Part shown: one piece after another, positions 5,112-18,912 of the stretch
Position numbering within the stretch: position 1 is the stretch's first letter
How the letters are laid out: every line of letters starts with the position of its first letter
IMG/VR virus record: IMGVR_UViG_3300030107_003218
Coordinates: 5,133 to 28,222 of that record
Source: a virus
DNA length: 23,090 nt
Strand: one strand, 5' to 3'
Made by a program: the position numbers and the translations under genes
Notes under the pieces: generated by a model
Told to the model about the DNA's origin: nothing
The model's input: only the letters and a program-made list of their open reading frames with translations
The model's database searches: none

Positions 5112-6627
5112 TTTCTTTCTCCTCTATTGGTAGGTCGATTTCGGTGTTGTCAAACTCTGGTACAAACCAGACGCGAAGATTTTTCCATTGACCTGTATCT
5201 TCGTCCTTAAACTTGTAGACGGTATTACACTCATTCCCACCGTTTATATCTTTGAGCCGCTGTTGTATCTGTGGACGCTTGAGTTCTCTAAAACCTCTGT
5301 TACGCAAGAACTCCATCAGTCCCTTCAATGTGAACATCGTTAAGTCTGTCTCCGTCCATGGTTTACCCAACACCATCTCCTGCGGTGACTTTGCCCTAAT
5401 GCGGCTGTTACAATAGATCTCCAGTAATTCTTCAAACTGTCCTTTGATCGTAAGTTCTTTTGGAACCTCAACATGCGTTGCCTGTTCCAGAAGTTTGTTT
5501 ACATATATTTGCCACTCAGCGGCTTTCATAACTGGCGGCATTACATCTAGTTGTTCCATGCAAGCACGTTGGAATTGCAGCGGCATTTGTAACTGTTCGG
5601 TGGATAACTCTAGGCGCCTGCCATCAACATCAAGAAAGTACAATCGAGGCTCTGACTTTTGTATTGTCAGGCCGGTGATGCCTGGCATAGATGAGTTCTT
5701 ACCCACACCATACTTTGCCTCTCGGCATGCGGCCTTGTCACAGTGACTGCCCATGGGTTCTTCTTTACACAGGTAGCCGTATTCTTTTTTCTTATGCTGG
5801 TTTTGTATGGTGACGATTTCACCGGCTGGCAGAGATGGCTTGCAATACTTCTGGTTCCACTTCTCTAGTGTTTGTTCCCATGTATCTGGATGCATCATCT
5901 TTGCGGCTACAGCGGCATGAAACATGACCTTGTTTCTCGTGCCATCAGGTACAGAGGTCGCAAACATAATCCGAAGACATGGCGGCATCTCCTTTAGTTC
6001 ATCATCGTCACTTGTAAAATCTAAACTCCGTAAGTCCTCCAAGGTAGTCGTGACCCTGTCCACATAGTTCAGGAATCGTTCAAGCGATAGTTCCTCGCCC
6101 TTCTCATTGACTGCATAACGTAAGGTATTCTCCGAGTCGAAGTATGGCAGGTTGATGAAGTTGCCCACATCGCCACGCTCGGCAAGGATCTTGTTTTGTT
6201 TTGGAAACACCTCACAGCCGCCGTAACCAAGCACAGCGGCAAACTCGGTCAGATGATCTCTCATATCAGTGGCAGTGATCCAGTCCTTGGTAAACAAGAA
6301 CAGGTGTGCTCCTCCTGATTTTGACCGGCAAACAACCAGTGGTAATTTAAAACGGCGACACTTCTTGAGTATGGCGACATGATCAATTGGATATGTATCA
6401 ATGTCTAACGCACCAAACTTACACATGTTCTGATCATTGATGGGAATAGATCCGACTCCTGTCCCACCTTCCAAATGACCTTTGATCAGATCCATCGTCA
6501 TTGGTTCTCGTACAATATAACTTTGTGCCTCTGTCTTACCGTTCTTCCTTACATTCCCCACTGTAGTTTGACCGTGTGCAACGCTTGATCCTTCAAACGC
6601 CGCCGCAAAGCGGTCAGCTAAACTCAT
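5095..6627 (-). CDS. Archaeo-eukaryotic-type (AEP/TOTE-like) DNA primase
   Basis: A 510-aa protein expected to make primers for the family A polymerase. The AEP core is visible: metal-binding D75 and D77 in FGALDIDTY, the SxH-type element CRSKSGGAHLFLF (H108), and EVFPKQNKI around residues 139-147 followed by GNFINLPYF. This set resembles primases of TOTE elements and many phages. A Cys cluster near the middle (CKEEPMGSHC, then AAC) could bind zinc. The C-terminal end is acidic and finishes in NDIPF, like the tip of an SSB tail. The ATG at 6627 is preferred to one at 6669 because GGAG lies about 8 nt upstream and the longer start would run through the preceding hairpin. Confidence 0.85.
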   Translation of the reverse strand: MSLADRFAAAFEGSSVAHGQTTVGNVRKNGKTEAQSYIVREPMTMDLIKGHLEGGTGVGSIPINDQNMCKFGALDIDTYPIDHVAILKKCRRFKLPLVVCRSKSGGAHLFLFTKDWITATDMRDHLTEFAAVLGYGGCEVFPKQNKILAERGDVGNFINLPYFDSENTLRYAVNEKGEELSLERFLNYVDRVTTTLEDLRSLDFTSDDDELKEMPPCLRIMFATSVPDGTRNKVMFHAAVAAKMMHPDTWEQTLEKWNQKYCKPSLPAGEIVTIQNQHKKKEYGYLCKEEPMGSHCDKAACREAKYGVGKNSSMPGITGLTIQKSEPRLYFLDVDGRRLELSTEQLQMPLQFQRACMEQLDVMPPVMKAAEWQIYVNKLLEQATHVEVPKELTIKGQFEELLEIYCNSRIRAKSPQEMVLGKPWTETDLTMFTLKGLMEFLRNRGFRELKRPQIQQRLKDINGGNECNTVYKFKDEDTGQWKNLRVWFVPEFDNTEIDLPIEEKENDIPF

Positions 6628-7479: not shown

Positions 7480-8048
7480 TTATTCCTCCTAACCTCGGCA
7501 ACTCTAGCTACAAATGCTCCAAACAAATCCAGATCAATAGGTCTACCCTCTCGAACAGACTCTTTCACAAACGCTTTAAGTGTCATTGAGTGGACATGTT
7601 CTTTTTGTTCTGGGTGAAAACCCTTCTGTTCAAGGTCATACATGACATCGCCAGCTTGGTTGTCTTGCCCACGACCAAACGACACGATGATGTCGTTCTT
7701 GATTATGTCGTCATGACCATGTTCTCGGAGCCAATTGAAAGCCTCCTGCTTCCGGTCAGCAGGGATTGACGCAGACACAAACGCCTTCAGTTTGACGGTC
7801 ACACCGTCAACGTCCAAACGCTCTATACCCATCTCATCCATGAGCATAGGTATCTGTTCAAACGCCATCCTCTGTTTTTCTTGTTTCAGTGCTTTAAGAT
7901 GTGTCTCAGCGTCTTCGATTTGCTGGTTCACGTTATTAAGCTGGCGCACCAGGCCAGATAATTGTTTACCTCCATCAGCCCCGACATTGTCGAGTGTCGC
8001 TGCATCAGCAAACATTTCTTCTTCAAAGATTGTTTCACTCTGCTTCAT
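7476..8048 (-). CDS. Uncharacterised coiled-coil protein, first gene of the replication operon
   Basis: A 190-aa protein. Residues about 28-65 form a likely coiled coil (segment LVRQLNNVNQQIEDAETHLK and onward), followed by a conserved-looking globular part with FNWLREHGHDDIIKNDI, HVHSMTLKAFV and a FGAFVARVAEV end. The coiled coil followed by a small domain resembles Gp157-type and related phage recombination-associated proteins, but I cannot assign a family. The start at 8048 is chosen from several in-frame ATGs: longer versions run into the divergent promoter and helicase leader, while GAGG lies about 11 nt upstream of this ATG. It is the promoter-proximal gene of a seven-gene leftward operon. 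Confidence 0.75.
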   Translation of the reverse strand: MKQSETIFEEEMFADAATLDNVGADGGKQLSGLVRQLNNVNQQIEDAETHLKALKQEKQRMAFEQIPMLMDEMGIERLDVDGVTVKLKAFVSASIPADRKQEAFNWLREHGHDDIIKNDIIVSFGRGQDNQAGDVMYDLEQKGFHPEQKEHVHSMTLKAFVKESVREGRPIDLDLFGAFVARVAEVRRNK

Positions 8049-8075
8049 AGCAAGTACATCCTCTTCAGGTTTGTG

Positions 8076-8104
8076 TTGACGAAACCATTTCGCACAACTA
8101 TGTT
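8076..8104 (+). promoter_or_regulatory. Candidate sigma70-type promoter for the SNF2 operon
   Basis: TTGACG (8076-8081) and TATGTT (8099-8104) are separated by 17 bp, just upstream of the AGGAGG (8111-8116) and ATG (8124) of the helicase gene. It lies in the 75-bp gap between divergent operons. The leader would be only about a dozen bases long, so the assignment is tentative. Confidence 0.4.
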
Positions 8105-8123
8105 CAACATAGGAGGACATCGG

Positions 8124-9584
8124 ATGACTGTCAACTACAAATTCAAAACTACACCATATGCACATCAGATCGAGGCATTGGATCGTAGTATCGACAGGGC
8201 TTCCTTTGGTTTTTTCATGGAGATGGGCACTGGTAAGTCGAAGGTGTTGATTGACACCATCGCAACGCTTGCCGATCAGCAGAAGATCAGCTTTGCATTA
8301 ATCATTGCACCCAAAGGCGTGTATCGCAACTGGATAAACAAAGAGATACCTCAACATTTTTGTGATGATGTGCCGCATCAAGTGTTGGCATGGCAGGCAA
8401 CTCAAACACAATCATATAAAAAAGAGGCAAAGGCTTTCTTTTTTAGCGAGGATCCTGCTGTAAAAATCTTCGTCATGAATGTGGAGGCGTTTTCTAGTGC
8501 CAAGGGTAAGGCAGCCGGCGAATGGATGGCTGAAAGATTCGGGCGCAATGCACTTATAGCTGTAGACGAATCGACTACGATCAAGAACCATAAGGCAAAG
8601 CGCACAAAGTCTCTAATCAAGATCGCGGCAAAGTTCAAGTACAAACGCATCCTGACAGGATCGCCTGTCACAAAATCTCCAATGGATCTGTTCGCACAGT
8701 TTCAATTCCTCAATCCTGATATTTTAGGCTTTGAATCATTCTATGCGTTCCAGAACAGGTATGCCGTGCTTCAAAAGCGCAGCATGGGTGCACATAGCTT
8801 TCAACAGGTGCTTGGCTACCGAAACTTGGAAGAACTGACCGCAAAGATAGATCCGCACATCTATCGGGTATTGAAGAAAGATTGTCTGGACCTGCCAGAC
8901 AAAACCTACACCGTGCGTCATGTATCTCTGACCATGGAGCAGATTCGTATGTACAAGGATTTACAGAAGGAAGCCATCACGCTTCTGGACAACGGTGACT
9001 TAGTGTCCGCACCACAGATCATCACGCAGATGTTACGACTGCAACAGATCCTGTCGGGGCATATCAAGACTGATGACGGTGATCTGCTTGAAGTGCCAAC
9101 ACAGCGGCTCGGTGCCATGATGGAATGTATCGAGGAGATATCGGGCAAGATCCTTATCTGGTCACGATTCAGGTATGATATCGTCAAGATCCGTTCGGAA
9201 CTTGCAAAGGTGTATGGTGAAACATCAGTTGTATCTTACTACGGCGACACGACAGAAAAAGACAGGCAACTTGCCATCGACAATTTTCAAGATGGGGACG
9301 CTCGGTTCTTTGTAGCTAACCCAGCCACCGCAGGATTTGGCCTCACGCTGACCACGGCCAACACAGTGATCTACTATGCTAATGACTTTAATCTTGAAAC
9401 ACGAACTCAGTCAGAGGATCGCTGCCATCGTATAGGTCAGAAAAACCCAGTGACGTATATTGATTTGATTGCTGATGGGACGATTGATGAGAAGATCATC
9501 AAGGCGCTCCGTGGTAAGATAGATATAAGCGCACGAGTTCTTGGAGAGGAGGCACGAGAATGGTTGACATTAGTCCCACGGTAG
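8124..9584 (+). CDS. SNF2-family DEAD/DEAH-type helicase/translocase
   Basis: A 486-aa SF2 ATPase of the SNF2 type. Motif I is GTGKS (35-39), motif II is DEST (148-151), motif III is TGSP (178-181). The second RecA domain has the NPATAGFGLTLT stretch (399-410) and motif VI QSEDRCHRIGQ (429-439), which is diagnostic of SNF2 proteins. Phage homologues are compact, lacking chromatin-binding domains, and are thought to remodel protein-DNA complexes or branched DNA during replication and recombination. The start at 8124 has a perfect AGGAGG seven bases upstream; the ORF remains open further upstream without a better start. It heads the rightward operon leading into the deazaguanine cassette. Confidence 0.94.
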   Translation: MTVNYKFKTTPYAHQIEALDRSIDRASFGFFMEMGTGKSKVLIDTIATLADQQKISFALIIAPKGVYRNWINKEIPQHFCDDVPHQVLAWQATQTQSYKKEAKAFFFSEDPAVKIFVMNVEAFSSAKGKAAGEWMAERFGRNALIAVDESTTIKNHKAKRTKSLIKIAAKFKYKRILTGSPVTKSPMDLFAQFQFLNPDILGFESFYAFQNRYAVLQKRSMGAHSFQQVLGYRNLEELTAKIDPHIYRVLKKDCLDLPDKTYTVRHVSLTMEQIRMYKDLQKEAITLLDNGDLVSAPQIITQMLRLQQILSGHIKTDDGDLLEVPTQRLGAMMECIEEISGKILIWSRFRYDIVKIRSELAKVYGETSVVSYYGDTTEKDRQLAIDNFQDGDARFFVANPATAGFGLTLTTANTVIYYANDFNLETRTQSEDRCHRIGQKNPVTYIDLIADGTIDEKIIKALRGKIDISARVLGEEAREWLTLVPR

Positions 9585-9793
9585 AAGGCACAATTGATAT
9601 CCTGATCGACTACAAGAAGGGTGGACTGACACTCGCACAGGCGGTTGATCGTTTTTCAAAGCTGACCGGCATAGATCAAAACATATCTGAAAAATATATT
9701 CGGGAGTTGGGTCGTGACAATATCATATCGCTCAATAGTAAAAGACAGGATCGGGCAGGCAAGTCGGAGAAGACAAATGATAAGGGAGGGTGA
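9560..9793 (+). CDS. Small uncharacterised protein
   Basis: A 77-aa protein whose ATG lies inside the end of the SNF2 gene (25-nt overlap) and is preceded by GGAGAGGAGG at ideal spacing. Residues 1-55 look like a compact helical domain (VEGTIDILIDYKKGGLTLAQ and on to YIRELG), and the C terminus is a Lys/Arg/Asp-rich tail. No family is recognised. The strong ribosome-binding site and tight packing support a real gene. Confidence 0.65.
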   Translation: MVDISPTVEGTIDILIDYKKGGLTLAQAVDRFSKLTGIDQNISEKYIRELGRDNIISLNSKRQDRAGKSEKTNDKGG

Positions 9794-9971
9794 TGGCGCC
9801 CTGTCACAGTTGATATCGGATGGGTTATGCCCTCGATGTCATACAGTGATGCCGCCTGTAGAGGTGCATGGTCATGTGCAATGTACCGTATGTAAACTAA
9901 TCATTAACGAGTGTTGTCAAGGAGAGACATCACAAGAGTCAATAAAGGAGAATAAAAATGAATTGGATTGA
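9777..9971 (+). CDS. Small zinc-ribbon protein
   Basis: A 64-aa protein with two CxxC knuckles, CPRC (C18, C21) and CTVC (C36, C39), separated by 14 residues: a typical zinc ribbon. The ATG at 9777 is chosen because GGAG lies seven bases before it; an in-frame ATG 63 nt upstream has no such site. It overlaps the preceding gene by 17 nt and the transporter gene by 14 nt. Zinc ribbons of this size in phages often bind nucleic acid or a polymerase, but no specific role can be given. Confidence 0.7.
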   Translation: MIREGDGALSQLISDGLCPRCHTVMPPVEVHGHVQCTVCKLIINECCQGETSQESIKENKNELD

Positions 9972-10488
9972 CATGATTAAAAATAAATCAGTGATGCTTT
10001 ATAAATATACAATAGCTTACATAGCAACAATGGTTTTAGTAAATGTAGGATTTGAATATATACCATTACTTAAAATGACTTGGCTTGGATCAGAAGAAAA
10101 ATATCCACCTATGGCACTTGTAGTTGGATTAATTTTTATTCTGCGTGACTACTCACAAAGAGAAATAGGTCACAAAGTATTAGGGGCAATGGCAATAGGC
10201 GGGGTTCTAAGTTACGTTATGGCAAGTCCTTTTGTTGCATTGGCTTCAGTTGTAGCTTTTGTAGTAAGTGAGTTAGTTGATTGGGCATACTATACATGGA
10301 GCAAAAAATCACTCAGAGAAAGAATATTAATATCTAGCTTGCTGTCTACACCAATAGACTCAGCAGTATTTCTATTAATAATCAACCACTTCACAATCAT
10401 AGGCACAATGGCAATGTTTCTCAGTAAGATGATAGCTGCTGTAGCTATTTGGTATTGGTTAGGAAAACGAGATGCAAAAACGATCTAG
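9958..10488 (+). CDS. yhhQ: VUT/YhhQ-type queuosine-precursor (preQ0/preQ1) transporter
   Basis: A 176-aa integral membrane protein with about five hydrophobic segments. Family landmarks are LRDYSQREIGHKVLG (the RD-rich conserved loop), VVAFVVSELVDW and SSLLSTPIDSAVFL; the acidic SELVD and TPIDS positions are typical of VUT (PF02592) proteins. Cellular YhhQ imports the 7-deazaguanine precursors preQ0 and preQ1. Here it would raise the cytoplasmic preQ0 pool in the infected cell, feeding the two genes that follow. It has a strong AAAGGAG site and overlaps queC by 17 nt. The DNA is clearly more AT-rich than the helicase gene upstream, suggesting recent acquisition. It is shorter than cellular YhhQ (about 220 aa). 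Confidence 0.85.
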   Translation: MNWIDMIKNKSVMLYKYTIAYIATMVLVNVGFEYIPLLKMTWLGSEEKYPPMALVVGLIFILRDYSQREIGHKVLGAMAIGGVLSYVMASPFVALASVVAFVVSELVDWAYYTWSKKSLRERILISSLLSTPIDSAVFLLIINHFTIIGTMAMFLSKMIAAVAIWYWLGKRDAKTI

Positions 10489-11020
10489 TGTCGTCATGCT
10501 AAGCGGTGGAATTGATAGTTGTGTGTGTTTGCATACAGCTATCAATCCTGTTGCTTGTGTTGGCATAGACTACGGACAACCACATAAAATTGAATTAAAA
10601 TATGCAGAACAAATAGCTAGTGATTTTGATTTGCCTTTTACAGTTATATCAATACCTTTGATTACTAAAAGTAATGATGTTGTTTTTAACTGTCGCAATG
10701 CAACCATAGCGTGTCTAGGTGCTAGTTATGCAAGTTCTATCGGTGCAACCACAATTATCATGGGAAGTAATTGGTCAGATTGGGATAGATTTCCTGATTG
10801 TAGACCTAATTTTTATAATAATTTAAGAAAAACATTTTTATCTGCTGAATATTCTGTGTCTATCGCTACTCCGTTAATTAACATGACTAAAACCGAAGTC
10901 GTAAATTTAGCCAAAAAACATCAAATAGATTTATCGAAAACTTATAGTTGTTATGAAGGCAAATATGAACCTTGCAATGTTTGCCTTGCTTGTAGAACAA
11001 GAAAAGAAGCAGGAGCATGA
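10472..11020 (+). CDS. queC: QueC, 7-cyano-7-deazaguanine (preQ0) synthase
   Basis: A 182-aa enzyme that converts 7-carboxy-7-deazaguanine to preQ0 using ammonia and ATP. The PP-loop is SGGIDS (11-16). FPDCRPNFYNNL matches the PDCRPEF motif of QueC. The zinc site is C160, C168, C171 and C174 (CYEGKYEPCNVCLAC), with the usual spacing. It is about 40-50 residues shorter than E. coli QueC, mostly by loss of the segment before the VFNCRN element. It lies between the transporter and the DpdA-like gene, with overlaps on both sides. QueD, QueE and FolE are not in the window, so the substrate must come from the host or from genes elsewhere. Confidence 0.92.
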   Translation: MQKRSSVVMLSGGIDSCVCLHTAINPVACVGIDYGQPHKIELKYAEQIASDFDLPFTVISIPLITKSNDVVFNCRNATIACLGASYASSIGATTIIMGSNWSDWDRFPDCRPNFYNNLRKTFLSAEYSVSIATPLINMTKTEVVNLAKKHQIDLSKTYSCYEGKYEPCNVCLACRTRKEAGA

Positions 11021-11703
11021 TCCATTATCACGGCACACCACTAACACCAAGAGAGATGCTTCTCCGCATGGCGGGGAAGCACTTCTGTGTTTCTTTTGCT
11101 AGTCCTTGGGATGCTAGTATTTGTTTGGATATCGGGCAGTCAGTTATGTGGGACAACGGAGCATTTACCACATATACCCAAGGCAAGGAATTTAGGATTA
11201 ATGAATTTTACGAATGGGTTGAACCCAAACTGGGTCATCCTCACTGGGCTGTAATTCCTGATGTGATTGGAGGCAGCGAAGAAGAGAATCGCGTGCGTCT
11301 TAAAACTTGGCCTTTTCCTAAAACTTTTGGCGCACCTGTATGGCACATGCATATGGACACTGATTATCTGCTTTATCTTTGTGACAACTATCCAAAGGTC
11401 TGTTTTGGCAGTAGTGGAGATTTTTGGAAAATAGGAACAATACGTTGGCAACAACGTATTGATGAGGCTTTTAATGAATTATCAAAGCATCATAGGCACA
11501 TGCCGTGGATTCATATGCTACGAGGTTTGTCGCAAGCTGGTAACAGATGGCCTTTCGCCTCGGCTGACAGTGTTAATGTAGCACGAAATTTTAAAGATCG
11601 GACACAATGTCCAGAGCACATGGCTCGTAGAATAGATTCCATACAATGTCCTATTGATTGGGATGAGAAGTCTGCCATACATCAAATGGAGTTAGCGATA
11701 TAA
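11017..11703 (+). CDS. DpdA-like tRNA-guanine-transglycosylase-related DNA base exchange protein
   Basis: A 228-aa protein with features of the short phage DpdA/TGT group: WDNGAF (45-50), a HWAVIPDVIGG strand (76-86) with Asp82, VCFGSSGDFW (128-137), WIHMLRGL (164-171) and SADSVNVARN (182-191), the last being characteristic of DpdA relatives. Such proteins swap guanine in DNA for preQ0 or a derivative. Asp46 and Asp82 are the candidate catalytic acids. It starts inside the queC stop (ATGA), completing a transporter-synthase-transferase cassette. It lacks the C-terminal zinc site of bacterial TGT. It is followed by a strong terminator. The family call is from motif memory; an uncharacterised TIM-barrel protein is the alternative. 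Confidence 0.75.
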   Translation: MIHYHGTPLTPREMLLRMAGKHFCVSFASPWDASICLDIGQSVMWDNGAFTTYTQGKEFRINEFYEWVEPKLGHPHWAVIPDVIGGSEEENRVRLKTWPFPKTFGAPVWHMHMDTDYLLYLCDNYPKVCFGSSGDFWKIGTIRWQQRIDEAFNELSKHHRHMPWIHMLRGLSQAGNRWPFASADSVNVARNFKDRTQCPEHMARRIDSIQCPIDWDEKSAIHQMELAI

Positions 11704-13371: not shown

Positions 13372-13480
13372 TTCTTCCTCCATAAATCTGGAACCAACAG
13401 TCTGTGCAGAGGAATATCTTGCCGTCCTTTGCATCGGCTTTATTATCACAGTTGTTACATTTACTTATCGACAGCATCAT
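13262..13480 (-). CDS. Small zinc-ribbon protein, long overlap with next gene
   Basis: A 72-aa ORF whose N-terminal part has CNNC (C8, C11) and CTDC (C25, C28), a zinc ribbon. Residues after about 36 are Arg/Gly/His-rich and look like the shadow of the other frame. Possible readings are a real 72-aa protein overlapping the 51-aa gene, or a single gene broken by a frameshift near 13371. The start overlaps the methyltransferase stop by 20 nt. Confidence 0.5.
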   Translation of the reverse strand: MMLSISKCNNCDNKADAKDGKIFLCTDCWFQIYGGRNGKSKRMVNGHGGGCHVHVARRMVREAWRERDRGLS

Positions 13481-14810
13481 GTATTCCCTTCAACAAGTGA
13501 CAGATAACATCAATGGTAAACCCATTTCCTAGCATGCGATAGCGTTGGGTGTTTGAAACGTGCGCGGTGTAGTTGTCCGGCACTGTTTGCAAACGCTCAC
13601 ATTCAACAGGCGTCAGCTTGCGCCAACGCAATTCACTCTCGCTTACAACCACATTGTCCTTATCAACGGTTGTCAGACAGTTTGACTTGTCATCTGTGCG
13701 TGTCTCAACCTTTTGTGTAAATGGAACTGACTTGTCATCATCCATACGGTCACCCTTATAATTCAGCCTCCGGTTGACAATGCGACCCATTACAAAATTG
13801 TTTTGTTCCCATGCCGAACCGCTCACGGTTGGAACTTTACCGTCTTTTGCTTTAATACCGCCTTGGTTCTTACCCCTTGGCACTTGCAATATTTTCGGTT
13901 CAAGATTGCCACCAGATGCCGCCGCCAATGTCGGCGCCTTGCCATCAGGATGATAAACCCTGCGGTTATAATCATGACCTTTAAGATCGGCTTGCCCTGC
14001 CATGACCAAACTTTCGTTTGTTTCCGGTTCGCCAAAATCAAATGACATTTGCCGCGTTTCTTTGAAATAGTTATATGGCACGCCCTTATGTATGTTGGCC
14101 GTGAGCGTGAATGACTTTTCGGTGTCGGGCGTTTGCTCATATCCATCCGCTCTTCTTGATCCGGCTTGTGACCACTTATCATTGCCACGCTCCATATACG
14201 CGACAGACTTCATGCTATGATAATGTTCTTCGCCTATCTCGCTCACATCCTGCAAAATGTCTTTAAGATATATACGTTTGTTTTCGGGCAACGACTTGAC
14301 TGGGATGTTTGTCCAATACAAACGATCCCGATTCTGCGCCGATACGATATTGGAATTTATCCGAACAGGTTTTACGCCCAACTGTTCGTTGATAACGTCC
14401 TGATACAATTGTTTCATCGGAACGTTTTCCAACAGGAAATACTTGGGCTTTAACGCCCTCAACAGGCGAACGAATTCAAAAAATAATTTGCTCCGCTCAT
14501 CATCAAAGTTCAATTGCTTGCCAGCAAACGAAAAACCTTGGCAAGGTGAGCCGCCTATCAATAAATCTATTTGCCTTCTATATGCACCTTTTTCTATATC
14601 CTCACCATTATGAGCAACAAACAATCTACCATCTATAGTTTCAAGTTTGGTCACATCACCCACATGCACCGTGTCAGGATAGTTTGCCTTTGCAACTTGG
14701 ATCGCGTACTTGTCGATCTCACTTGCGAAATAATTTGTAACAGGAAAGCCTGCCCTATCAAGGGCAAGCCTTCCACATGACATACCGTCAAACAGAGATA
14801 AAACGTTCAT
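13461..14810 (-). CDS. dcm: DNA (cytosine-5) methyltransferase
   Basis: A 449-aa C5 methyltransferase that adds a methyl group from SAM to cytosine in DNA. Motif I is LFDGMSCG (6-13), motif IV GGSPCQGFS carries catalytic C90, motif VI is LENV (127-130), motif VIII is QNRDRLYW (159-166), and motif X is RMLGNGFTIDV near the C terminus. The region between VIII and X (about 200-395) is unusually long and holds the target-recognition domain. The ATG at 14810 shares one base with the upstream stop (TAATG). No restriction endonuclease is adjacent, so it is probably an orphan enzyme protecting phage DNA. The target sequence cannot be read from the protein. Confidence 0.95.
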   Translation of the reverse strand: MNVLSLFDGMSCGRLALDRAGFPVTNYFASEIDKYAIQVAKANYPDTVHVGDVTKLETIDGRLFVAHNGEDIEKGAYRRQIDLLIGGSPCQGFSFAGKQLNFDDERSKLFFEFVRLLRALKPKYFLLENVPMKQLYQDVINEQLGVKPVRINSNIVSAQNRDRLYWTNIPVKSLPENKRIYLKDILQDVSEIGEEHYHSMKSVAYMERGNDKWSQAGSRRADGYEQTPDTEKSFTLTANIHKGVPYNYFKETRQMSFDFGEPETNESLVMAGQADLKGHDYNRRVYHPDGKAPTLAAASGGNLEPKILQVPRGKNQGGIKAKDGKVPTVSGSAWEQNNFVMGRIVNRRLNYKGDRMDDDKSVPFTQKVETRTDDKSNCLTTVDKDNVVVSESELRWRKLTPVECERLQTVPDNYTAHVSNTQRYRMLGNGFTIDVICHLLKGIHDAVDK

Positions 14811-15289
14811 TACCAACTCGCTTGATATTCAACAGAGTGCCAGAACATTTCGTTTTGCTGATCACCGTCCAACCAGCTAGCGGCTCTCTCAAAAATCTCC
14901 GCATCTTCATCGGCACATTCTCGTAATTCGTCCCACCATTCCTTATCACCAAAGAAGAACCCACCACATCTATCGTTCGGCGGTAGCGGAGTAGAGGCAT
15001 CGCCCCTCAACACACTAGCGATCCATCGCAAATCTTCGGCATGCAGATCAATCGGACGACAATTATCTTCGCCGTTAGCAAAAGCATCAACGATAAGTTG
15101 ATGCAGAGGCGCATGCTTACGCCAATACCCCAACTCAAGTTTTTCGCTGGTGCGCTTATAATCATCGACAAAGACTTCATTAATCGGAATAATCCCACCA
15201 TCTTCATCGCGTAGGATATTACCGTTATCATCTCTCGCGTATTGAGTGCGCTGAAATTTATCTCCAGTCAGATACATATCTAGTCCCAT
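14810..15289 (-). CDS. Phage protein of the MGLDMYL type, unknown function
   Basis: A 159-aa protein beginning MGLDMYLTG, a start shared by a widespread family of unknown function in phages and bacteria (recalled). Other visible elements are LELGYWRKHAPLH, then NCRPIDLHAEDL. It is acidic and has two Trp-rich patches. Start and stop are both TAATG junctions, so it is coupled to the gene before and to the methyltransferase after. A second in-frame ATG nine bases upstream has no support. Confidence 0.7.
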   Translation of the reverse strand: MGLDMYLTGDKFQRTQYARDDNGNILRDEDGGIIPINEVFVDDYKRTSEKLELGYWRKHAPLHQLIVDAFANGEDNCRPIDLHAEDLRWIASVLRGDASTPLPPNDRCGGFFFGDKEWWDELRECADEDAEIFERAASWLDGDQQNEMFWHSVEYQASW

Positions 15290-16816: not shown

Positions 16817-17383
16817 AACACCGACATTCTTGCAGATGACATAGACGTAGCGACTGGACGCAAACTGACAAATCGTCAAAAAGAGTTTGCTCGTTTATAT
16901 GTTGAAGGTATTTACTCCAACGCTGAATGCGCGAGACGGGCTGGATATGCTTCTGCATCAGCCGCTAGCATTGCCGGTCATTTACTAGCCGGCAAAAAAT
17001 TTCCTCATTTAATCGATCACATACAAGAGTTACGCGAAGAGCGTGAACGCAGATATGGCGTCACGATCATTGGTCAACTAAAACGGCTACATGATTTGTC
17101 TGCTGGCGCCGAAGAAGCTGGACAATTTTCAGCCGCTATAAATGCAGAAAAGATACGATCTGCACTTGGTGGGTTGACTGTCGATAGGCGTGAACAGATT
17201 CACCAGCTTGACGATTTGTCACGAGAAGAGATCACCGCAAGACTGTCACAACTTAGACAACAATATCCTCAAGCATTTATTGAGGGTGAATTTACAGAGG
17301 TCAAAGATGCCGACACCAGAGGTGAACTTTTGGAACACGTTGAAACGAAACCTACCAAAGAACTGTCACACAACGCGAATTGA
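16805..17383 (+). CDS. terS: Terminase small subunit
   Basis: A 192-aa DNA-packaging protein. The N-terminal domain has the terminase-2 pattern LTNRQKEFARLYVEG, then NAECARRAGYASASA and the following LLAG element, an HTH for recognising packaging sites. A helical charged segment (REERERRYG) follows, then an oligomerisation-type region and an acidic tail. It would bind pac/cos DNA and load the large subunit. No terminase large subunit follows; the next gene is a nuclease. The ATG at 16805 has no clear Shine-Dalgarno site and sits inside a TGTAACAAG-like repeat, so expression may be autoregulated. A TTG at 16769 is an alternative start. Confidence 0.88.
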   Translation: MSDKNTDILADDIDVATGRKLTNRQKEFARLYVEGIYSNAECARRAGYASASAASIAGHLLAGKKFPHLIDHIQELREERERRYGVTIIGQLKRLHDLSAGAEEAGQFSAAINAEKIRSALGGLTVDRREQIHQLDDLSREEITARLSQLRQQYPQAFIEGEFTEVKDADTRGELLEHVETKPTKELSHNAN

Positions 17384-17768
17384 AAACCGCCATGGTGGTG
17401 GCGTTCCTGACGTACATATAGTATGGGCAGGGCTTGTGTTTTGGTTAGAATTAAAAACAACAAAAAACAATACTGTCAGACTGTCTCCAAATCAAATTGC
17501 TTGGAATACCGCGTATTCGCGTTCGGGGGGCTTGTCTTTCATCTTGGTTAAGCACCTCTCTTCGGGCGACCTATTTTTGTTTCGGGGTTCGGGATCATTG
17601 GATGTCGGGCGTTCGGGACTGGCGGCAGAAGCCGTGTTCCAAGGTTCGGGGTACGATAACCTATGGGCAGCAATTCGGGAGTCGGGTTCGGGGTTCGGGA
17701 CTTCGGGGTTCGGGGATCATCGAGCCTTGGACCAGGGGTCAGGGGCTGGGGCACCAGTACAACAGTAA
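17307..17768 (+). CDS. VRR-NUC family nuclease with repeat-encoded C-terminal tail
   Basis: A 153-aa protein. Residues 1-92 are a VRR-NUC (PD-(D/E)XK) domain: E5, RIENRHGGGVPD with D35, ELK with E48 and K50, and Q63 in SPNQIAW. Such nucleases cut branched or structured DNA and accompany phage helicases. Residues from about 93 on are Gly/Ser/Phe-rich (FRGSGS, QGSGY, SGSGFGTSGFG) and are the translation of the TTCGGGG repeat cluster. This tail is not part of the family, so the repeat seems to have invaded the 3' end of the gene. The ATG at 17307 has AGAGG six bases upstream and overlaps terS by 77 nt. The ORF is open upstream without a supported start. Confidence 0.8.
   Translation: MPTPEVNFWNTLKRNLPKNCHTTRIENRHGGGVPDVHIVWAGLVFWLELKTTKNNTVRLSPNQIAWNTAYSRSGGLSFILVKHLSSGDLFLFRGSGSLDVGRSGLAAEAVFQGSGYDNLWAAIRESGSGFGTSGFGDHRALDQGSGAGAPVQQ
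17521..17718 (+). repeat. TTCGGGG repeat cluster 1 (G-rich on plus strand)
   Basis: Around ten irregular copies of TTCGGG(G), the densest at 17581-17592 and 17684-17715, interspersed with unique sequence. The cluster overlaps the 3' coding part of the VRR-NUC gene and lies just beyond the leftward terminator at 17798-17817. The same unit recurs at 18985-19014 and 20131-20179, always G-rich on the plus strand. Confidence 0.85.
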
Positions 17769-17982: not shown

Positions 17983-18284
17983 GATGATTCCTCTTTTAAT
18001 TCTTGATACATACGTCCACTTGAAAACAAATCTTCTATGTTTTCAATAATGCAATTTTGATAGAGATCCTCTGCCGTTGTGTGAAGTGTTAGTTGAAACG
18101 GAAAAGATTTAGCATTTTGTATATCATCTAGAATCATTTCCAAATCTTCATAGTTTGGGCAATCCTCCAAACCATCCTCTCGATACATTTCTAGATGTGC
18201 TTCAATTTCATTCGTGACAGCGTCCGCAATCTTCTGAGAGTTTATTTTTCCGCCATACAATTCTTGAATCACTACTGACATCAT
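17979..18284 (-). CDS. Uncharacterised acidic protein
   Basis: A 101-aa acidic protein, largely helical, with KIADAVTNEIEAHLEMYRED, then a CPNYEDLEMILDDIQNA stretch. The ATG at 18284 overlaps the upstream stop as ATGA and has GGAGG eight bases before it; the longer ORF start at 18341 lies inside the upstream gene without support. No family is recognised. Confidence 0.7.
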   Translation of the reverse strand: MMSVVIQELYGGKINSQKIADAVTNEIEAHLEMYREDGLEDCPNYEDLEMILDDIQNAKSFPFQLTLHTTAEDLYQNCIIENIEDLFSSGRMYQELKEESS

Positions 18285-18883
18285 TTTACTGCCTCCACAA
18301 TAGTTGTTACGCCATTGTTTATTGTGTAGCACAATAAACAATCTTTACATTTTTGACCGGTGCAATTTTGGTCAACGTCACTACCTTTTGAAACATTGTT
18401 AAACGTGCGGTCAAAATGTTTTGGCGGTTCATTCATTACCGCGTCAATGCGTGGGTTTGAATAAATCAAGATAAGATTCGCGGGTTTGTCATTCTTCGCG
18501 TAAAAATCGTTGATCAGATTTTTGCGCTTAGTCCACAATGCAAAATCACAATGTGGATTGTGTATCGTGATATTGTGCAGATTTTCTAAATGAATGCGGT
18601 TGATTAACTCGCCATGGCCTGAAAATCTGAAAAACGCGTCTAAAATAGTTGGTAGCATATGCGGAGGAATCAGCCCTCCCGATAATATGTCGCTATTTTT
18701 TTGCCATGCGGGCACGCAATTTTTACGCAAACCTTGTAGCATTTCGGCAGAATAACATTTTGTGCAGATGATATCATCCTTGCCGCTATTGTACATTTTC
18801 ATGCAAAATTCGTTAGATAACGTATTTGTATTTAATGCTTTGAAACCGGACAATTTGCCGGTCATATTTGATATTTTCAACAT
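18281..18883 (-). CDS. GP88-like Cys-rich phage protein
   Basis: A 200-aa protein resembling the phage GP88 family of unknown function: an N-terminal NTLSNEFC...CTKCYSAEM segment, a central HCDFALWTKRKNLI segment and a C-terminal cluster NCTGQKCKDCLLCY. The CxxCY and CxxxxCxxCxxCY patterns suggest a bound metal or iron-sulfur cluster. The ATG at 18883 has GGAGG eight bases upstream and is preferred to one at 18898. It is the first gene of a three-gene unit. The family link is by memory and moderate. Confidence 0.65.
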   Translation of the reverse strand: MLKISNMTGKLSGFKALNTNTLSNEFCMKMYNSGKDDIICTKCYSAEMLQGLRKNCVPAWQKNSDILSGGLIPPHMLPTILDAFFRFSGHGELINRIHLENLHNITIHNPHCDFALWTKRKNLINDFYAKNDKPANLILIYSNPRIDAVMNEPPKHFDRTFNNVSKGSDVDQNCTGQKCKDCLLCYTINNGVTTIVEAVK

Positions 18884-18912
18884 TGTTAAAGCCTCCATTA
18901 TTTAACAAGTAA

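Follow-up and report, generated by a model that had tools for sequence, protein, structure and literature searches.

A probable phage cassette for 7-deazaguanine DNA modification with an exchangeable precursor module beside a short DpdA

Modification of DNA with 7-deazaguanines is established in phages, and several types of DpdA are named; the names DpdA3 and DpdA4 reportedly come from a 2023 paper. In phage CAjan, deletion of dpdA abolished dPreQ0 and restored sensitivity to restriction (PMC6884629). By LC-MS, dADG made up 0.02% of G in the DNA of phage 7-11 (PMC6884629) and 0.13% in that of MED16 (PMC8306585), and most of the enzymes tested on MED16 DNA could still cut it (PMC8306585).

The window analyzed here is a stretch of 23,090 nucleotides, positions 5133 to 28222 of a 28,222-base IMG/VR viral record that is classed as linear and is probably a fragment. 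No isolated phage matched the window in a megablast search. At 9958-11703, three overlapping plus-strand genes follow one another in the order transporter, QueC, and DpdA-like protein (Table 1). The first two genes overlap by 17 bp and the last two by 4 bp (ATGA), and the same gene order was found on four other viral contigs (L090 to L093). A sequence-only reading had assigned these positions and families, and profile searches bore it out for every gene (PF02592, PF06508, and phrog_887). It also placed the genes in a phage and gave base exchange of the DpdA type as their likely role, which is likewise supported by the family, alignment, and fold matches described below.

Table 1. Positions of the cassette genes and of other features in the window and at related loci.
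Feature	Location	Coordinates	Strand	Basis or remarks
SNF2-type helicase	Window	7962..9584	+	Upstream of cassette; synteny with L001, L002, L003, L015, L018, L062
Zinc-ribbon-like ORF, 85 aa	Window	9714-9971		
Hydrophobic membrane protein of 176 aa, predicted VUT/YhhQ-type transporter of a 7-deazaguanine precursor	Window	9958..10488	+	PF02592, phrog_4899
Imported block, transporter plus QueC	Window	9970..11016	+	Nucleotide identities and GC
Compact QueC, 182 aa, predicted CDG to preQ0 synthase	Window	10472..11020	+	PF06508, 1.2e-41
Short DpdA-like guanine transglycosylase, 228 aa	Window	11017..11703	+	phrog_887, alignments, predicted fold
C5 cytosine DNA methyltransferase	Window	13461-14816		PF00145, 5.1e-47; near cassette
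Repetitive Gly/Ser/Arg-rich frames	Window	17548-17768		GSGVRG type; end of ORF 17190-17768
Protein with sub-threshold match to Gp88	Window	18281-18898		PF17338
phrog_37496 members (candidate mini QueF-like)	Related loci	L017:6828-7067; L001:7714-8001; L082:5765-5995		41 loci
Second small conserved ORF	RHph_X2_30, Pam5, L047	L082:5512-5757; L084:6678-6938; L047:8683-8925		Between transporter and DpdA genes
QueD-like proteins	Bradyrhizobium contig, Polaromonas MAG, Caulobacter phage DMCA	L104:5627-6049; L113:1424-1852; L083:5705-6001		Adjoin short dpdA; DMCA copy 98 aa
PAPS-reductase-like PP-loop proteins	Two Acidobacteria genomes, Neomegalonema MAG	L119:3938-4777; L126:3875-4777; L105:4072-4809		Just upstream of short dpdA; recognized by eye

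The transporter scored 29.5 bits against PF02592 (cutoff, 27.2; E value, 1.1e-6) and matched phrog_4899 with an E value of 1.7e-33, while its score against the stricter equivalog model TIGR00697 was 27.7 (cutoff, 50.95). It is 44 to 46% identical to proteins annotated as preQ0 transporters in Seurat/CAjan-type coliphages, and its predicted substrate is a free 7-deazaguanine base, with preQ0 favored. The QueC protein is 31 to 32% identical to many phage QueC proteins, has 2pg3 (8.9e-18) and 3bl5 (3.1e-13) among its PDB sequence matches, and scored 135.3 bits against the NCBIfam equivalog TIGR00364, which has a cutoff of 150.3. Motifs were scored by alignment against the signature defined in PMC13329287. 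The full canonical set (SGGxDS, YxQxHxxE, RN, PDC, Lys, and Tyr) was found, in the form of SGGIDS in the PP-loop, YGQPHKIE, RN, FPDC, K140, and, following the first zinc Cys, the essential Tyr. Two of the three departures are that only RN is kept of VPxRN and that YPDC has become FPDC; the Y131F variant of E. coli QueC keeps partial activity (PMC13329287). The sequence-only reading had described an intact PP-loop and zinc site. SGGIDS and all four zinc cysteines are indeed intact, but the zinc spacing is C-x7-CxxCxxC rather than the canonical C(x)8CxxCxxC.

The third protein matched phrog_887, annotated as queuine tRNA-ribosyltransferase, with an E value of 2.5e-43, and 102 phage records match it; searches of Pfam and NCBIfam gave no match. 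In an hhalign comparison, the short DpdA profile aligned with CAjan DpdA over 94 columns (E value, 1.5e-5), and the protein is 31% identical to MED16 DpdA and 29% identical to 7-11 DpdA by alignment. Residues D46, D82, G131, H166, and D184 are conserved among its relatives and the named DpdA proteins, with the three aspartates kept in 49 relatives and likewise in the named DpdA sequences of the alignment. These aspartates may be the equivalents of TGT D102/D280, the E. coli TGT row of that alignment being unreliable. No TGT came up when PDB sequences were searched with the DpdA profile, and hhalign of the profile with E. coli TGT gave no alignment; the proposed link to TGT comes through intermediate sequences and the predicted fold. 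The AlphaFold2 model had a pLDDT of 78 and a pTM of 0.80, with the D184 loop below a pLDDT of 50. Foldseek placed generic TIM barrels on top, and TGT was recovered by VIA re-alignment, in which 2ash aligned over 199 residues at 3.3 Å (Z 12.0) and TGT entries ranked as a block (Z 11 to 12) above unrelated barrels. The model and profile matches support a TGT-type TIM barrel that is DpdA-like, in line with the sequence-only reading. The suggestion that its small size might mark a divergent subgroup did not hold up, since the 7-11 (234 aa) and MED16 homologues are also short and dADG has been published for their DNA, which makes short DpdA a known type.

Membership in the TGT superfamily would also suit an enzyme acting on RNA, with host or phage tRNA as the target and the transporter and QueC feeding tRNA modification during infection, and the MED16-type DpdA does cluster with proteobacterial TGT-like proteins (PMC8306585). 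We consider this unlikely, however. The chain ends before the C-terminal zinc region of TGT, and no CxCxxC...H motif is present in the 228-aa protein; the 7-11 and MED16 homologues coincide with modified DNA; and no tRNA genes were found in the window. Another reading starts from type IV CBASS, where a QueC-like and a TGT-like gene also form a pair, Cap9 and Cap10, and would have the window proteins join 7-deazaguanine to protein, perhaps as a counter-defense. Indeed, Cap10 (9ntn, Z 12.7) was the top VIA match of the DpdA model, tied with TGT, and the window QueC is Cap9-sized, has Cap9-like zinc spacing, and has Cap9 (9nto) as its third PDB match. The residues that define Cap9 are missing, however: QueC has CY...CRTR and the canonical YGQPHKIE (YxQxHxxE) where Cap9 has CE(x)6CxxCxxCxD and Y/FxQ(x)5E. 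Furthermore, no CD-NTase or effector match was obtained among the window proteins scanned (part of the window ORFs), and in most relatives the TGT-like gene occurs with no QueC. A Cap9/Cap10-like role is thus scarcely credible here.

The neighborhoods of the short dpdA were compared across 80 viral relatives, five QueC relatives, and 39 bacterial contigs, giving 125 loci with the window. The closest short DpdA proteins in bacteria are mostly on alphaproteobacterial contigs. Since the loci were picked by similarity to the window DpdA and include many near-duplicates (76 clusters at 90%), the counts hold for the short-DpdA clade only. Of the 125 loci, 92 have a transporter gene adjoining dpdA; among the 80 viral relatives the number is 75, and two of the remaining five stop at a contig edge. 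The most frequent order was transporter-QueFL-DpdA (32 of 125), followed by transporter-DpdA and DpdA-transporter (25 each), DpdA with no other searched gene close by (16), QueFL-DpdA (13), transporter-QueC-DpdA (5), DpdA-transporter-QueFL (4), and QueD-QueE-QueC-DpdA (2, the same contig twice); other arrangements accounted for 3. QueD-like and PAPS-reductase-like proteins also occur beside some short dpdA genes (Table 1). The linkage of transporter and DpdA is kept across many unrelated flanks. Host queuosine synthesis uses both QueC and YhhQ, and the window pair might be imagined to do no more than boost precursor, raising host queuosine with the DpdA gene incidentally adjacent. Some phages do carry pathway genes without DpdA (PMC6884629). 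The persistence of the linkage over so many flanks and the 4-bp overlap of QueC and DpdA in the window nevertheless make this very unlikely. A 2019 survey found YhhQ not to be correlated with any phage group (PMC6884629), and the linkage in the short-DpdA clade is therefore an addition to it.

The locus is recombinant. The transporter and QueC genes have a GC content of 34 to 35% in a 45% GC genome and are 89% and 86% identical at the nucleotide level to those of L090, a 34% GC phage contig that is otherwise largely unrelated to the window. The left break lies between about 9932 and 10002, and the right break is the QueC/DpdA overlap. Beyond that overlap, the first 150 nucleotides of dpdA are 86% identical to those of L001 versus 69% to those of L090. 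L001 is a syntenic 45% GC sibling with a cassette of transporter, mini QueF-like protein, and DpdA. Its polymerase, methyltransferase, and SNF2 helicase are 72%, 72%, and 70% identical in amino acid sequence to those of the window; within the cassette, the figures are 87% for DpdA and 51% for the transporter. On contigs L091 to L093, the same two genes for transporter and QueC accompany a different DpdA (60 to 61% amino acid identity). The identities to L090, the GC contrast, and this pairing with another DpdA indicate that transporter and QueC moved as a pair. The pair is thus a recent import beside a resident dpdA and would, most simply, have displaced a transporter and a mini QueF-like gene.

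A second sibling, L015, shares SNF2, primase, and terminase genes with the window and has QueD (PTPS, 3.2e-18), QueE (phrog_2076, 1.9e-44), and QueC before dpdA, with no transporter at the cassette. Import and synthesis therefore take each other's place beside the same DpdA, and supply or finishing genes are exchanged around a fixed DpdA. Two points go beyond the sequence-only reading: the recent import of the transporter-QueC pair and the usual partner of the short DpdA, which is a transporter, either alone or together with a mini QueF-like protein.

That small protein, of about 80 aa and belonging to phrog_37496, adjoins the short dpdA in 51 of the 125 loci. The family carries no functional name in the PHROG annotation and no naming of it was found in the literature searched; QueF-like annotations do occur in other phages, e.g., MMDA13. 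Cys13-Pro14, Tyr22, Glu35, Glu52, and His71 are invariant. The family profile matched the archaeosine synthase QueF-like 5jyx among PDB sequences (E value, 1.6e-5), and the predicted structure (pLDDT 95) has a T-fold of beta-beta-alpha-alpha-beta-beta order with 5jyx/5k0p as its best PDB match (E value about 1e-4). From profile and model, phrog_37496 is predicted to be a miniature archaeosine synthase (QueF-like) whose product would be either archaeosine, an amidine, or preQ1, an amine; this would give the unnamed family a function. No such protein was found in the whole 28.2-kb record, and the zinc-ribbon-like ORF just upstream of the cassette was rejected as the missing one because it did not match the QueF-like profile. 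Another small conserved ORF, of 81 to 86 aa and GGxExRFxIERxDGxPI type, lies between the transporter and DpdA genes in a few loci (Table 1); the one member scanned had no Pfam match.

By profile searches, the other window genes include a family A DNA polymerase, a UvrD-type helicase, an AEP-type primase, and a small terminase. The SNF2 helicase gene upstream of the cassette marks a conserved locus across sibling phages. DpdE is the helicase of bacterial dpd islands, and the SNF2 protein matches the PADLOC DpdE model (E value, 1.3e-37); ZorD scores better, and the protein is probably a generic phage SNF2 helicase. The C5 cytosine methyltransferase is also present in the closest siblings, and the phage may thus have two kinds of DNA modification. 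The Gly/Ser/Arg-rich frames and the protein with the sub-threshold Gp88 match (Table 1) lie farther along. Searches of the 28.2-kb fragment (record G000) turned up no FolE, QueD, or QueE; their absence, put forward earlier for the phage, stands for the fragment and not as a claim on the phage.

Taken together, the cassette is likely a phage 7-deazaguanine DNA modification unit with an exchangeable precursor module. In the scheme that we infer, which covers the enzyme activities, a DNA rather than RNA target, the base identity, and an anti-restriction benefit, the transporter would supply the infected cell with a free 7-deazaguanine base, most likely preQ0, and the compact QueC would convert host CDG to preQ0. 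The short DpdA would then put preQ0 in the place of guanine in phage DNA, so that dPreQ0 would be sparse or partial, and hydration of the inserted preQ0 could yield the amide dADG. On the best reading of the genes, the window phage would insert preQ0 or its amide into its own DNA; sibling cassettes would yield an amidine or amine derivative. The modified DNA might gain some protection from restriction or from other DNA-recognizing defenses. With the modified base at only 0.02 to 0.13% of G in 7-11 and MED16, and with most tested enzymes still cutting MED16 DNA, that protection may be weak.

If the preQ0 model holds, preQ0 took over from the QueF-like product as the predicted base through the swap. 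A broader proposal, which we put forward tentatively and with somewhat less than even confidence, is that one DpdA is kept while the DNA chemistry is changed by module swaps, from transporter plus mini QueF-like protein (a predicted archaeosine-type amidine or preQ1-type amine) to transporter plus QueC (preQ0) or QueD-QueE-QueC, with phrog_37496 comprising unusually small archaeosine-synthase-like enzymes that act with DpdA on DNA. The near-constant transporter linkage in the short-DpdA clade, with supply or finishing genes exchanged at one junction, matters for which precursor genes go with which DpdA and for DpdA phages that lack the pathway. Module exchange also offers a direct route to testing how phages alter their DNA base.

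Compared with known systems, the mini protein of the sibling cassettes shares the T-fold and the Cys-Pro and Glu positions of archaeosine synthase QueF-like (5jyx/5k0p), but it is phage-borne and adjoins DpdA. The short "singleton" DpdA proteins of Salmonella 7-11, SEN1, Shigella SfI, and Pantoea MED16 are homologous to the window DpdA, of similar length, and have the same Asp and His positions, but they are only 29 to 36% identical to it, and neither a transporter nor QueC was detected beside dpdA in 7-11, SfI, or MED16. CAjan (Seuratvirus/Queuovirinae) adds FolE, QueD, and QueE and has a DpdA of 306 aa, whereas the window fragment has the transporter and QueC only, with a DpdA of 228 aa. Combining import with synthesis, which the sequence-only reading had thought unusual, is already seen in CAjan with its preQ0 transporter and FolE-QueD-QueE-QueC-DpdA, and the window resembles that phage in its transporter, its QueC, its TGT-like DpdA, and the predicted dPreQ0.
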